Notes under the pieces: generated by a model | Told to the model about the DNA's origin: nothing | Seen by the model: only the letters and a program-made list of their open reading frames with translations | Database searches by the model: none | Assembly (NCBI GenBank): GCA_001305115.1 | Contig: BCAA01000004.1 | Span: 62,001-126,000 of the forward strand | DNA from: Clostridia bacterium UC5.1-1E11 | GTDB lineage: Bacteria > Bacillota > Clostridia > Oscillospirales > Acutalibacteraceae | Length of the DNA stretch: 64,000 nucleotides | Direction of reading: 5' to 3' | Part shown: one piece after another, positions 21,681 through 27,325 of the stretch | How the letters are laid out: the number at the start of each line of letters is the position of its first letter | How positions within the stretch are numbered: the first letter of the stretch is position 1 | Position numbers and translations under genes: made by a program

Positions 21681-21775
21681 TTCATAAGAAGGTAGAAGAT
21701 TTGGGAACAAAATGGGAATATTATCAGAGAAATCTTCGGCCAAGTGGACATGTTTGTTTTTAAGGGAGGATCATG

Positions 21776-22530
21776 ATGTATTGGAATCCAGAGCAGTATT
21801 TACAGTTTGAAAAAGAACGCACCCAGCCTGCCATCGATTTAGCCAACCGAATCCCACAAAAAGCCGTGGATCGGGTTTTGGATGTGGGATGCGGTCCAGG
21901 AAATAGTACAAAAGTGCTCGCGGAACGGCTTCCCGGCGCACGTGTTTTAGGGATTGACCGTTCTTTGGAGATGATTGAGGTGGCAAAAGAGCAGCACCCT
22001 GCATTGCAATTTATACAGTGGGATGCATCCCAGGACTTGGAAGGCTTGGGACCCTCATTCGATGTGATTTTTCCAATGCCTGCATTCAGTGGATTCCCGA
22101 TCATCCAGCCTTGTTGGGGCGGTTTATGGACAGGTTAAATCCTGGTGGAATATTGGCAGTACAGGTTCCGATGAACAATCGAGAGCCGATTCATCAGATT
22201 ATACAGGAATGTATATCCAGCCCACGATGGAAATCCTTTTTCCCGGAGACGCGCGTCTTTTTCCAGCTGCAACCGGAGGAGTATGCGGCTATACTGGCCG
22301 GTTGGACAGACCAATATACCCTGTGGGAGACTGTATATTATCACCGCATGCCCTCACACCGTTCCATTTTGGAATGGTATCGTGGAACCGGGTTGCGGCC
22401 ATACCTACAAGTTTTGCCCGCCCGTGAGGCTGAACAGTTGGAATTGGAAATTTTGGCCCGGCTGGAAGAATGCTATCCCAAACAAAAAACGGGGAGATTT
22501 TGTTTCGTTTTCCAAGGCTCTTCTTCCTAG
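21776..22530 (+). CDS. tam: Trans-aconitate 2-methyltransferase-like enzyme (one apparent frameshift)
   Basis: This is a SAM-dependent methyltransferase. The N-terminal half has motif I VLDVGCGPGNSTKVLAERLP, GIDRSLEMIEVA and WDASQDL. The frame breaks near 22070, where TTTTT needs one more T to give VIFSNACIQWIPDHP. The second half continues with NPGGILAVQVPMNNREPIH and the Tam-like WETVYYHRMPSH. Repaired length is 251 residues, right for Tam, which esterifies trans-aconitate to limit aconitase inhibition. Start 21776 suits the AAGGGAGGA spacing better than the adjacent ATG at 21773. It is monocistronic. Confidence 0.88.
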
Positions 22531-23126: not shown

Positions 23127-24662
23127 TTATGTCCCGATAGAGATGATCTTTTGCACCCAATCTTTGTAAAAGGCTTCCTCATGTGATACCAGCAACACTG
23201 TCCCTGAAAATTCACAAAGCGCCTTTTTTAGCGATTCTTTTGCCTGTATATCCAAATGATTCGTAGGTTCGTCCAGTATTAAAAAATTGCACGGCGTTAG
23301 GGTGAGTAAACATATTTTTACTTTTGCCTGTTCACCGCCGCTGAGTGTACGGATCGCCTGCATTGCATGTTTACTGGAGATACCACAGCAGGCCAAATGT
23401 TTGCGGACCTCTTTTGTTGCCATTTGAGGGTAAGCTTCTGAAACGATTTGTAGTGGAGTCTCATCCCCATCGCGCCATATAAGATCCTGCTCAAAGTAGC
23501 CGGTTGTGACTTGTTCAGAAAATTTATAGGTTCCTCCCATTGCGGGAATTTGGCCGGTTAGAGTTTTCAGCAAGGTGGATTTTCCGATACCATTAAATCC
23601 AGTCAGAACGACTTTTTGCCCCCCGCCGATGCGAAAATCGACCTTGGATAAAACAGGAAAATGATAACCGACGGATAATTGTTTTACCAGTAGATGTTCT
23701 GTATTTGTCAAAGGGAGTTCAGAGAAACGAAAGAATGGTTTGATTTCTTTCAGGCGGCAATCCTCCAACCGCTCCAATCGATCGAGCTGTTTTTGCCGGC
23801 CTCTTGCCATTTTTGCTTTTCTGCCAGCGATATTTTTGCGGATAAATTCCTCGGTCTTTTGAATCTCCTTTTGCTGAGCAGAATACTGACGGATGTAATC
23901 CTCTCTTATAAGCGCTTTCTTTCGGAAAAACTCGGAATAGGTCCCATAGTATTTGACGAAACGCTTATGGTCGATATCGCAGATTCTATTTGCAACTTTG
24001 TCCAGAAAATTATAGTCGTGCGATACAACGAAAAAGGCAGTTTCTAAATTGGATAACAAAGTAGAAAGCCACTCCACATGCTCTTTGTCCAAAAAGTTGG
24101 TAGGTTCGTCAAGCAGTAGGACGTCTGGTTTTTCAAGCAAAAGTTTTGCCAGAATAACCTTTGCCCGTTGCCCTCCACTGATTTTATCGATTGGCCGGTC
24201 GAGACCAATTGTCAGAAGCCCTAAACCACTTGCAACCTGTTCGATCTGTGTATCAATCTGATAAAACACACTGTTTTCAAGCTGTTCCTGATACTCTGCA
24301 GCTTGGTTCAAGAGTTGCATGTCGGAATGACCATTCTCGAACGATTCGTATATCTGCATCATTTTACGTTCGACCGCATAAAGGTTTGAAAATGCCGACT
24401 TTAAAAATGTTCGTATGGTCAAATGGCGGTCGATGTCTGCGTATTGGTCAAGATAACCTACAGATACGTGAGGCTGCCAGATCACTTGCCCCTTGTCGGG
24501 AATGATCTGTTCTGTCAGAATCTTTATTAAGGTGCTTTTGCCGCTGCCGTTTTGACCGACAATTCCGATATGCTCGCCTTTATTTAGGGATAGGCTGGAA
24601 TCCTGATATAAGAGATTCTCTCCGAAAGAGTGTGTTAATCCTTTTATTTCTAGTAAACCCAT
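23127..24662 (-). CDS. ABC-F family ribosome-associated ATPase, probable antibiotic resistance type
   Basis: This 511-residue soluble protein has two ABC domains and no membrane segment. ABC1 has Walker A GQNGSGKST (about 36-44), signature ISGGQRAKV (161-169) and Walker B LLLDEPTNFLD. The interdomain linker (about 240-315) is rich in Lys/Arg/Gln. ABC2 has GFNGIGKST (about 355-363), LSGGEQAKV (440-448) and LILDEPTNHLD. ABC-F proteins enter the ribosomal E site; resistance members displace macrolide, lincosamide, streptogramin or pleuromutilin drugs. The upstream leader with a short peptide and two terminators is typical of drug-inducible members and argues for a resistance role over a housekeeping one. 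The drug class is unknown. Confidence 0.9.
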   Translation of the reverse strand: MGLLEIKGLTHSFGENLLYQDSSLSLNKGEHIGIVGQNGSGKSTLIKILTEQIIPDKGQVIWQPHVSVGYLDQYADIDRHLTIRTFLKSAFSNLYAVERKMMQIYESFENGHSDMQLLNQAAEYQEQLENSVFYQIDTQIEQVASGLGLLTIGLDRPIDKISGGQRAKVILAKLLLEKPDVLLLDEPTNFLDKEHVEWLSTLLSNLETAFFVVSHDYNFLDKVANRICDIDHKRFVKYYGTYSEFFRKKALIREDYIRQYSAQQKEIQKTEEFIRKNIAGRKAKMARGRQKQLDRLERLEDCRLKEIKPFFRFSELPLTNTEHLLVKQLSVGYHFPVLSKVDFRIGGGQKVVLTGFNGIGKSTLLKTLTGQIPAMGGTYKFSEQVTTGYFEQDLIWRDGDETPLQIVSEAYPQMATKEVRKHLACCGISSKHAMQAIRTLSGGEQAKVKICLLTLTPCNFLILDEPTNHLDIQAKESLKKALCEFSGTVLLVSHEEAFYKDWVQKIISIGT

Positions 24663-24694
24663 GGTTTATCAAAATCCTTTCCAGTGATAATAAA

Positions 24695-24736
24695 AAAGGC
24701 AGAAAGCGATACGCAAGGTATCGACCTTCTGCCTTT
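24695..24736 (-). terminator. Attenuator terminator T2 before the ABC-F gene
   Basis: On the minus strand AAAGGCAGAA and TTCTGCCTTT (24727-24736 with 24695-24704) form the outer stem. Inner CGATAC/GTATCG pairs (24707-24712 with 24718-24723) extend it. TTTTTTA follows. It ends only about 30 bases before the start codon, so it must be overcome for expression. Confidence 0.88.
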
Positions 24737-24761
24737 CAGCCACATTTGGCGATAAATGACA

Positions 24762-24793
24762 AAAGGCTATGGACAAAACATTGTCCATAGCCT
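24762..24793 (-). terminator. Upstream terminator-like hairpin T1 in the ABC-F leader
   Basis: AGGCTATGGACA and TGTCCATAGCCT form a perfect 12-bp stem on the minus strand, followed by TTTTGTC. The U tract is short, so this may be a pause or partial terminator. Confidence 0.75.
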
Positions 24794-24898
24794 GAAAGCC
24801 CAAGATTCGCTAAAGAGTACAAGAAAACAAAGCAACCCTTGTTTTTCTGCGAAATCCTGTCGGGGTTACCTTATTTTCCGATGAAATCTAAAAGCGTG

Positions 24899-24994
24899 TT
24901 ATATGCTGGACTCTGTACAATGTTTCATCGGATTTAATTGTACAGAGTTGATTCGCCTACGTGGTTGATCTGTCAAATAAATGTGCATCTTCAT
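24899..24994 (-). CDS. Leader peptide of the ABC-F gene (31 residues)
   Basis: This is a short frame between the promoter and the attenuator hairpins. It starts ATG-AAG-ATG at 24994, with AAAGGAAGA immediately upstream, and ends TAA at 24899. The peptide begins MKMHIYLTDQPRRRINS. Codons after Arg-Arg-Arg form the 5' arm of a hairpin (24937-24948 with 24910-24921, 12 bp). The loop (TTTCATCGGA complement, 24923-24932) can instead pair with 24879-24888. An Arg-x-Arg motif is a known macrolide-dependent ribosome arrest signal in Erm and Msr leader peptides. The use of this peptide as an arrest sensor is inference from position and motif. Confidence 0.6.
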   Translation of the reverse strand: MKMHIYLTDQPRRRINSVQLNPMKHCTESSI

Positions 24995-25019
24995 TCTTCC
25001 TTTGGGATTTTTCACTTTT

Positions 25020-25048
25020 ATTGTATTCTATTGAAAGGGACTTGTCAA
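25020..25048 (-). promoter_or_regulatory. Promoter of the ABC-F leader
   Basis: On the minus strand a perfect TTGACA (25043-25048) is followed after 17 bp by TACAAT (25020-25025). The leader peptide start lies about 26 bases downstream of the -10. The 25049-25367 gap between this promoter and the flavodoxin-like gene holds nothing firmly recognisable. Confidence 0.85.
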
Positions 25049-25367
25049 TCCTTGCTGTGTTCGGAAATATAAGCGGTAGAATCGAAAGGAAATTGAGCGC
25101 TTCAAGCCTTTTACCAGAAACCACTTGTTCATAGAAGAACCACATGGTCGCCATTTTCAGTATATAGGGCGCTCCATGTTGATTGATCGAAATTCATCGT
25201 CCTTGAGAACTGCTTACTCCTTGTTTGTATCATACAATGGAACTTGCCATGCCAAAGATTCTCATACAGCGATTCCGTTTTTTCGCTTCGTACGGGTTGG
25301 CATTTCTCTACTACAAAAGCTTCTATGACCGTTTCGTAGACAATGAGAAGATTCTATATCACAGAAA

Positions 25368-25922
25368 TCATTTAGCATTTATACCATCCTGAACAAAAGA
25401 AAGGATCGGTTGAATGGTGCTGCGGTCGATGAAATTTACATCATTTCCGTAGGTGTCCAAAAGCTGTTGATCCTCTACGCGCAGGGTGGCCGGGTCCTTT
25501 TTTGCAAGCATATGTTGAAGCATAGCCATCATCGCGCGATGCATAACGCTCAATTTTCGATAATTCAGTCTGCCGCGCAAATGAAAAAAGGCGGTTTGTG
25601 CCTCTAAATCGGGCGGAAAAATCTTTTTTAATGAATTGCGGATGTGCTGAACATTGGCAGGGTCGTTAGGATCGGCAATCCCACAGGTAAAAAGGATGAA
25701 GGTTTTCGGAAGAATAGAGGCATACTTCTTTAAAAAAGTGGAAAGTCCCTTTACACCGCCTGCATAAAGTCCACCTCCGTAGAGAATACAGTCATAGCGA
25801 GACAGTGTTTCGGAAGAAAGCGCTTTGACTGCATAAAGATCTGCATGTAACGCCTCTGCAATCCAGCGCGCATAGGTCTCTGTAGAACCATACTTTGATG
25901 CGTAAACAACAATTGTCTTCAT
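25368..25922 (-). CDS. Flavodoxin-domain protein
   Basis: This 184-residue protein carries a flavodoxin fold resembling the protoporphyrinogen oxidase HemG/flavodoxin_5 group. The FMN phosphate loop is VVYASKYGSTETYARWIAEAL at the N-terminus. The second flavin-contact loop is YDCILYGGGLYAGGVKGL, and a third is FILFTCGIADP. It would act as a cytoplasmic electron carrier or reductase in this anaerobe. No operon partner is apparent. The family is sure; HemG activity is not, because no haem pathway gene is nearby. Confidence 0.85.
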   Translation of the reverse strand: MKTIVVYASKYGSTETYARWIAEALHADLYAVKALSSETLSRYDCILYGGGLYAGGVKGLSTFLKKYASILPKTFILFTCGIADPNDPANVQHIRNSLKKIFPPDLEAQTAFFHLRGRLNYRKLSVMHRAMMAMLQHMLAKKDPATLRVEDQQLLDTYGNDVNFIDRSTIQPILSFVQDGINAK

Positions 25923-26049
25923 GTAGCCTCCCAGCTGTTTGGATAGAAATTTTTGAGGGTATTTTTCCTAATATCGAGAAGCCCCTATGTACAATGGAAT
26001 GTTGGGCCATTCCGTTTGCGTATAAAAATGATCCACATTTACCACATAG

Positions 26050-26168
26050 TGGCGTAATACCCCTTGCTTTAGCTTCGGGGGCATAAGCCACACATTTTTT
26101 GGTTCATCTGTTCTATTTGAAGGAAACGGTCGTTGAGCCGAGAATCCCCGGCTTTAGACTAGGGGAGT
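26050..26168. mobile_element. Possible IS200/IS605-type terminal hairpins (remnant)
   Basis: Two similar foldback strings lie 86 bp apart: CCCCTTGCTTTAGCTTCGGGG at 26060-26080 (centre CTTTAGC) and CCCCGGCTTTAGACTAGGGG at 26146-26165. The CCCCGGCTTTAG core resembles subterminal hairpins of IS605-group elements. No transposase or TnpB frame lies between or next to them. If real, this is an internally deleted or decayed remnant. Confidence 0.3.
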
Positions 26169-26169
26169 G

Positions 26170-26541
26170 TCAAGGAAGGGAAATCCCTTCGATCTTTTGA
26201 AATTCCACAGTATAACCATTTGGGTCCTCCAAAAAGAAGGAATAGACCGGCTGGCTGGGGTGCTGGGCAGGGATACTCTGTGGCTGAACACCGAGTGCTA
26301 AGATACGGCGGTACTCGGCGTCTACATCGGCCCGGTTTGTACAATTGAGCGATAAACAGAGATGGCGGTGGGGAATTTCACCGTCCCCATAGGCGACAAA
26401 ACCGAAGGATCCGCCATTGGCGTAAAAGATTCGCACTGTATCGGAGGCAAACACGGTGCGCAGACCGATCACTTGCGTATAAAATGCTTCGGTTGCGGAT
26501 AGGTCTAGGCAAGGATAAAATGCTATACAGGAGGTTATCAT
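26170..26541 (-). CDS. VOC-family (glyoxalase/bleomycin resistance-like) protein
   Basis: This 123-residue protein has two beta-alpha-beta-beta-beta modules of the vicinal oxygen chelate fold: FYPCLDLSATEAFYTQVIGL at the start and YSFFLEDPNGYTVEFQK at the end. Possible metal ligands are His in HRHLCLSL and the Glu in YTVEFQK. The start at 26541 is preferred because GGAAGGAGG lies upstream; the longer frame to 26562 lacks a site. Members include metalloenzymes and drug-binding proteins, so the substrate cannot be told from sequence. Confidence 0.82.
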   Translation of the reverse strand: MITSCIAFYPCLDLSATEAFYTQVIGLRTVFASDTVRIFYANGGSFGFVAYGDGEIPHRHLCLSLNCTNRADVDAEYRRILALGVQPQSIPAQHPSQPVYSFFLEDPNGYTVEFQKIEGISLP

Positions 26542-26562
26542 GGATGGAATCCTCCTTCCCAT

Positions 26563-27325
26563 GTACTTATGTTTTATTTTGAACGTTTACTCAAGAAAAA
26601 AGCAAAAAGAGCTTATGCAGAGCAACTTCTTGTGGGTTTATCGATCCGGAAAGGCCGCTTTTAGAAAGACACAATAAAGGAAAGCATTGGAACCGAAATG
26701 AAAACCGCAGGAGGTCCCTCAGATAAAGGGGCACAATTGATATGTGAAACAATTGTGCCAATGCCGTTGAACACAAAATGAGCGTATAAAGCCGAATCAA
26801 AAATTGCAATGCATTTCTTTTGGAATTGGATGCCCTGTTCTTAAAAGGTAGGTTTTATACAGGCCAGCTACCTAAATATATCTATAGAGAAAACCATTCA
26901 AAGGAAACCGCAAGAAAGGATGCTTTTGTACGATATGAGCAATAGGACGTTACAATAGCCATCTGATCATGACGGGCCCCTTACAGCGATTTACGACTCC
27001 ATAGGCGATAGGACTCGTCGATCGTTCTGTGGTTGTGATTTGATTCCGGTTATCTTTGCTATAACGGTTTTTTGCTTATTTGTGATGGCTATATAAACGA
27101 ACAACTATCAACAACTTATAGGTAGGGTATCTCCATTATCATATTAGTTAGCCGTATTTGCCTATCAGATATAGGCAAATACATGTCATAATGGTCTTGA
27201 TAATCTGTCTTACTTGCCTGTATAGGAAAATTCAGCTAACAACCATGATACTTTCGCTTAATTTAGTAGAGATCTAAAATCACTACCGTCTACAAATAGT
27301 AGACTCTACTGATCTCGAACACACT
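26563..27325. other. Intergenic gap with no supported gene
   Basis: About 760 bp. Frames here are short and lack ribosome binding sites. One foldback, GTATTTGCCTAT/ATAGGCAAATAC near 27152-27180, is visible, without a T tract. I see no RNA gene or promoter I would defend. Confidence 0.5.

Follow-up and report, generated by a model that had tools for sequence, protein, structure and literature searches.

A putative ribosome-stalling attenuator of a drug-resistance-type ABC-F gene with the orphan uup RNA at its core

The region analyzed here belongs to a stretch of 64,000 nucleotides (hereafter "the window") from Clostridia bacterium UC5.1-1E11 (GCA_001305115.1, contig BCAA01000004.1, positions 62,001 to 126,000 of the forward strand). 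On its minus strand, a promoter, a short leader ORF with three consecutive Arg codons, a hairpin (P1), a sequence complementary to the loop of this hairpin (the anti-loop), and two terminators (T1 and T2) precede a gene encoding an ABC-F protein of 511 aa (Table 1). The protein just passes the threshold of the general ribosomal-protection-like model NF000355 (385.9 bits, cut-off 380), while the named resistance ABC-F models among the 25 shown (OptrA, Sal, Vga, Msr, CplR, Lsa and others) remain below their cut-offs. Upstream of the leader, on the same strand (25368-25922), lies a flavodoxin-like protein with a weak, below-cut-off match to menaquinone-dependent protoporphyrinogen dehydrogenase. 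At 21773-22530 on the plus strand, a methyltransferase-like gene (best model for its first piece: trans-aconitate 2-methyltransferase) seems to continue in another frame, as ORFs 21773-22138 and 22018-22530 overlap as if split by a frameshift.

Table 1. Features of the leader and the downstream gene (window coordinates)
Position	Strand	Feature	Remarks
25020..25048	-	Promoter	TTGACA-17 nt-TACAAT, 11 of 12 consensus
24899..24988	-	Leader ORF, 29 codons	MHIYLTDQPRRRINSVQLNPMKHCTESSI; SD AAAGGA; longer start at 24994 possible
24953..24961	-	Arg-Arg-Arg codons	Proposed stall site
24910..24957	-	Match to Rfam RF03060, uup RNA	Hairpin P1 and the codons just before it; 63.8 bits, gathering 36.8
24937..24948	-	P1 5' arm (region 1)	12 bp with 24921-24910
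24914..24929	-	Region 2, P1 loop and 3' arm	GATGAAACATTGTACA; complementary to the T1 apex
24878..24886	-	Anti-loop	TTTCATCGG; pairs with P1 loop CCGATGAAA (24931-24923)
24764..24793	-	Terminator T1 (regions 3 and 4)	Apex 24787-24772 (TGGACAATGTTTTGTC) pairs with region 2
24753..24767	-	Region 4, T1 3' arm and tail	GCCTTTTGTC...; complementary to the T2 5' arm (24738-24724, ...GGCAGAAGGT)
24694..24737	-	Terminator T2 (regions 5 and 6)	With U tract; 31 bases before the ABC-F ATG
23127..24662	-	ABC-F gene	511 aa, ribosomal-protection-like

All elements named in the initial annotation are indeed present in the sequence, and its observation is hereby confirmed, with two adjustments of position. 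Alignment by eye with relatives favors the ATG at 24988 over the start at 24994 of the originally described 31-codon frame, and the 3' strand of the alternative pairing, previously placed at 24879-24888, lies about two bases away. Scans of positions 24001-27200 as a whole do not exceed shuffled sequences (3 promoter-like matches against a mean of 6.4, and 3 terminator-like ones against 3.1), hence the case rests on conservation and not on these scans. On the other hand, the folded leader is far more stable than its shuffled versions (z -6.6, 0 of 100 shuffles). That the region is merely an unremarkable intergenic stretch with terminators of a neighboring gene, for which only the region-wide scans could be quoted, is refuted by the Rfam match, 27 bits over the cut-off, and by the conservation of the layout in relatives described below.

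P1 and its 5' flank correspond to uup RNA, an orphan motif that Rfam types as cis-regulatory and models over 48 nt only, whereas the element found here goes on for about 200 nt through the anti-loop and both terminators. A 2024 review of Clostridioides difficile riboswitches (PMC11477304) treats uup RNA among motifs similar to riboswitches and describes it as found in Bacillota and Gammaproteobacteria, commonly with ATPases of unknown function, and with no further evidence that it functions as a riboswitch. In the literature searched, which did not include the 2017 report cited by this review (Weinberg 2017, 10.1093/nar/gkx699), uup RNA was mentioned in the review alone, and a search for CD3359, the C. 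difficile gene behind a uup RNA, returned the review and one unrelated paper. A weak Rfam match to C. difficile SQ1002 lies over T1/T2 (22.4 bits, cut-off 128).

In order to identify relatives, we resorted to two complementary approaches. First, a degenerate pattern that fixes part of P1 and the loop identified at least 119 loci in a collection of genomes and 4 in viral contigs. Second, searches with the Rfam model, which are free of the bias of the pattern, revealed matches at E<=0.001 (in parentheses, over the cut-off) in 7 of 150 genomes of the window's own family (6), 4 of 398 of the phylum (4), 12 of 12 chosen genomes (12), and in the families of three further genomes, labelled G171 (21 of 197; 20), G547 (10 of 250; 8) and G549 (36 of 105; 34). 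In the family of G549 (loci L179-L207; loci are numbered with the prefix L throughout), 16 of the 36 matching genomes show two uup RNA matches each, the second mostly below the cut-off. A search of plasmids gave only one partial match, inside an ABC-F gene. Of the first 133 loci, 132 carry a slightly looser core, in 106 distinct leaders; 127 of the 132 have 200 nt downstream, and from these a set of 57 was obtained by removing similar leaders, which reduces but does not eliminate the non-independence of related sequences. L097, which has no convincing T1 or anti-loop and another kind of downstream gene, is probably a false match, but is counted among the 132, the 106 and the 57. L004, from a genome of the same genus as the window's, has the same leader as L027, labelled Clostridium sp. 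D33t1_170424_F3.

Comparison of these sequences shows that the leader ORF is under protein-coding selection. A start codon preceded by an SD of four or more bases is present within 130 nt upstream, in the frame that reads Ser-Val-Gln in the P1 5' arm (frame 1), in 122 of 132 loci, as opposed to 5 and 8 in the other frames. Among 92 distinct pre-hairpin ORF sequences we formed 31 disjoint pairs, in which 55 of 94 single-base codon changes are synonymous, while 22% are expected (29% with transitions weighted 4; p 1.4e-9 in this stricter version); shifting the frame by one or two bases gives 19 of 93 and 11 of 88, no more than expected. Thus, conserved bases at the 5' end of the Rfam model are codons, e.g. 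AAA CUU reads Lys-Leu in this frame.

Analysis of the peptide reveals that a basic residue just before P1 is its conserved feature. In 50 non-redundant frame-1 leaders the residue five before Gln is Lys in 28 and Arg in 14. Among 54 leaders in either frame (the 57 without L097 and without L004 and L067, in which no SD of our list was recognized), 81% have Lys/Arg at nt -9..-7 before the P1 core, 54% at -12..-10, 35% at -15..-13, 24% at -18..-16, 54% at -21..-19, and 4-21% in the six codons before that; 50 of 54 have one within nt -14..-6, the exceptions being L008, L009, L043 and L100. The Enterococcus-type leaders read P1 in another frame (e.g. MIYDYYFRFTRKSALNKWIR) and still place Arg-Lys at the same spot. 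The initial annotation regarded Arg-x-Arg as a macrolide arrest motif, and Arg-Arg-Arg of the window fits it, but +x+ ends at the conserved basic position in only 19 of the 50 non-redundant leaders and occurs anywhere in the nine residues before Ser in 25 of 50; it is therefore not conserved, and the drug cannot be read from it. The motif +x+ has been tied mainly to ketolides, macrolides being broader (PMC8298421). An amino-acid attenuator, in which ribosomes slow down at Arg or Lys codons when charged tRNA is short, would also account for such codons, often consecutive, directly before the hairpin, but we consider it very unlikely, as Arg and Lys replace each other, their codons vary (AAA 23, CGA 7, AGA 6 and AAG 5 among the 50 leaders at the conserved position), and the downstream genes are not biosynthetic.

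Two other candidates for an arrest sequence were rejected. The frame of the conserved MKHCTE tail is broken in leaders with spacers of 8, 11 or 12 nt (e.g. L008, L010, L021, L039, L047, L059, L066), while the RNA loop CGAUGA stays, so this part is conserved as RNA. In Ser-Val-Gln, Ser and Gln are forced by the P1 arm and by our own search pattern, and L178 retains Arg-Arg-Arg while losing them. The highly conserved loop and its pairing with the anti-loop, like the typing by Rfam as cis-regulatory and the place given to the motif in the 2024 review, might alternatively suggest that uup RNA is a small-molecule riboswitch, with P1 and the loop/anti-loop pseudoknot as an aptamer controlling the terminators and the ORF being incidental. 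We find this unlikely, because P1 lies inside the ORF, the conserved 5' flank and 5' arm are codons under coding selection, the spacer between the 5' arm and CGAUGA varies from 6 to 13 nt (L097 aside; the pattern allowed 6-14), and several families of export or ribosome-protection type follow the element.

The regions of the leader are complementary in a way that defines two mutually exclusive sets of helices: 1:2, 3:4 and 5:6 (off), and 2:3 and 4:5 (on). In the window, region 2 is complementary to the T1 apex over 16 nt, with a few mismatches. If the best match anywhere 70-320 nt downstream is taken, it is better than in shuffled sequences at p<=0.05 in 41 of 57 loci (33 of them at p<=0.01; 16 miss the threshold), and overlaps a terminator-like hairpin in 40 of 57. 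The complementarity of the T1 3' arm to the T2 5' arm reaches p<=0.05 in 32 of 54 loci and misses it in 22; no T1 was found in L005 and L025 and no T2 in L018, while L004, L008, L043, L052, L097 and L104, in which T1 or T2 is misplaced or the locus is doubtful, are included in the 54. Where T1 differs T2 differs with it, as in L016, L099 and L108. Swapping partners among 48 loci (the 54 without these six) lowered the mean score in every one of 1000 swaps for 2:3, 4:5 and loop/anti-loop. Within the two subgroups, i.e. the 29 loci whose region 2 begins GATGAAAC and the other 19, 4:5 has 0 of 1000 swaps as good in both, loop/anti-loop has 2 and 12, and 2:3 has 953 and 19; hence there is no 2:3 signal within the 29 loci, and the 2:3 covariation rests on contrasts between lineages. 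The region 2 purine and the T1 loop pyrimidine go together (A with T 28, A with C 0, G with C 8, G with T 5, 7 unassigned of 48; Fisher p 1.3e-5, not corrected for descent). Loop and anti-loop show paired changes, e.g. CCGGTGAA/TTCACCGG in L005, but the loop change in L153-L157 is not compensated, and in L138, L144, L158 and L167 our search picked another best partner than the usual anti-loop. Of the 84 loci in this comparison, the below-cut-off matches L007, L175 and L176 show no such loop, in L002, L142, L171 and L199 the hairpin finder took another hairpin than the match, and the rest show the loop or a close form of it.

Equilibrium folding does not reveal a switch: leaving off the P1 5' arm does not change formation of T1 (median 0.94 and 0.94), with a drop of 0.3 or more in only 1 of 49 loci (the 54 without L004, L008, L052, L097 and L104), which speaks against a simple thermodynamic mechanism. 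In a snapshot with RNA polymerase six nt past the T1 loop, before T1 can close, the median number of region 2:3 pairs in the 48 loci is 0.70 if P1 may form and 14.07 if its 5' arm is left off, although in 17 of 48 (counting those with 7 or more pairs) 2:3 wins in both cases. In the window, T1 (-21.4 kcal/mol) and 2:3 (-20.3) are nearly equal. We therefore propose that the switch is kinetic. The folds, calculated without pseudoknots, also show another long hairpin between the anti-loop and T1 (24877-24800 in the window); in L014 and L010 its 3' side, inspected by eye, holds a second CGAUG-like copy that could pair with the anti-loop.

Of the 106 distinct leaders, 74 precede ABC-F genes, 15 MATE transporters, 4 Mef-like MFS transporters, 1 an MsbA-like ABC exporter and 1 another gene (L097), while 11 have no gene before the end of the contig or stretch, as assigned by BLAST to six references. 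Ten examples were scanned with family models: six MATE genes match Pfam MatE, three MFS genes have Mef(B) and Mef(A) as the best named drug families, below the cut-offs of these models, and L020 is MsbA-like, also below cut-off. In the 29 ABC-F loci of the 57-locus set where it could be measured, the start codon lies 23 or more nt after T2, with an SD within 20 nt of it. Together with the two conserved terminators with U tracts, this favors control of transcription over the same stalling switch acting mainly on translation by hiding the SD of the main ORF; the latter is unlikely here, although known ABC-F leaders combine both modes, as proposed in part for cplR and vmlR (PMC9226507, PMC10201436).

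Altogether, we infer with fair confidence that the element is a translation-coupled transcription attenuator, of which uup RNA is the core. In this view, without stress a ribosome clears the leader ORF, hairpin 1:2 forms (its loop probably also held by the anti-loop, a guess that fits the conservation), and terminators 3:4 and 5:6 stop transcription before the ABC-F gene. When an antibiotic stalls the ribosome at the basic cluster, region 1 would be covered, region 2 would pair with region 3 as soon as the latter is made, and the freed region 4 could pair with region 5, so that both terminators fail and the resistance-type gene is transcribed. As for the geometry, a ribosome with the conserved basic codon in its P site would reach about 16 nt further (the toeprint distance stated for vmlR in PMC9226507), i.e. 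from 24955 to 24939 in the window, covering most of the P1 5' arm. The computational comparison establishes the coding selection on the ORF, the conserved basic residue, the complementary and mutually exclusive regions, the conserved terminators and the families of the downstream genes, while translation of the leader, stalling, its induction by a drug, read-through, the order of events and the role of the anti-loop are inferred. The interpretation offered in the initial annotation is thus partly supported: an attenuator in which a ribosome stalled at the basic cluster would mask the 5' arm agrees with our findings, but in our reading the helix that would disrupt the terminator is not the loop/anti-loop pairing but region 2 with the T1 apex, followed by the T1 3' arm with T2, and the hairpin was already catalogued. 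Start-stage drugs (lincosamides, pleuromutilins), included among the candidate inducers in that annotation, look less likely, as the basic cluster lies well inside the ORF, but this is an inference only.

Ribosome-stalling transcription attenuators of resistance-type genes are known; the one proposed here would be a distinct variant, found across several Bacillota families. uORF-dependent attenuation of an ABC-F gene has been shown for vmlR and cplR (PMC9226507, PMC10201436), but in terms of layout the uORFs of the PLSA ABC-F genes vmlR, cplR and lsaA (MIN, MRI, MAGN) have 3-4 codons and are thought to stall ribosomes at or just after initiation, whereas here the ORF has 29 codons in the window, and among the relatives a median of 16 codons lies between the start and the conserved Gln, with a basic cluster. 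In the msrD leader MsrDL (MYLIFM), a drug-stalled ribosome likewise prevents an intrinsic terminator, but it covers the terminator's own first half (PMC10314930), while here it would cover an upstream hairpin and act through a relay of helices. The hflXr leader rli80 of Listeria (14 aa, RLR) shares a basic motif in the leader ORF and a terminator/antiterminator choice (PMC6310831), but it precedes another gene, and here +x+ is not conserved and two terminators are present. The basic cluster placed in two frames and the relay over two terminators are, to our knowledge, unusual.

If correct, this reading gives a testable function to an Rfam family listed as riboswitch-like without evidence of function, and predicts that dozens of uncharacterized ABC-F and efflux genes in Bacillota are inducible by ribosome-targeting drugs, which would help to find intrinsic resistance missed by genome annotation. 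A further possibility, which we regard as about as likely as not, is that uup RNA is not a riboswitch but the heart of a portable, antibiotic-sensing attenuator cassette, which reads ribosome stalling at a basic nascent chain in either of two reading frames, relays it through a chain of helices that disarms two terminators in turn, and has been put before ribosome-protection ABC-F, MATE, Mef-like MFS and MsbA-like ABC genes across Bacillota. Copies of the leader in contigs of the viral collection, before MATE genes in L130, L132 and L133 and before an ABC-F gene in L131, hint at spread with mobile DNA.
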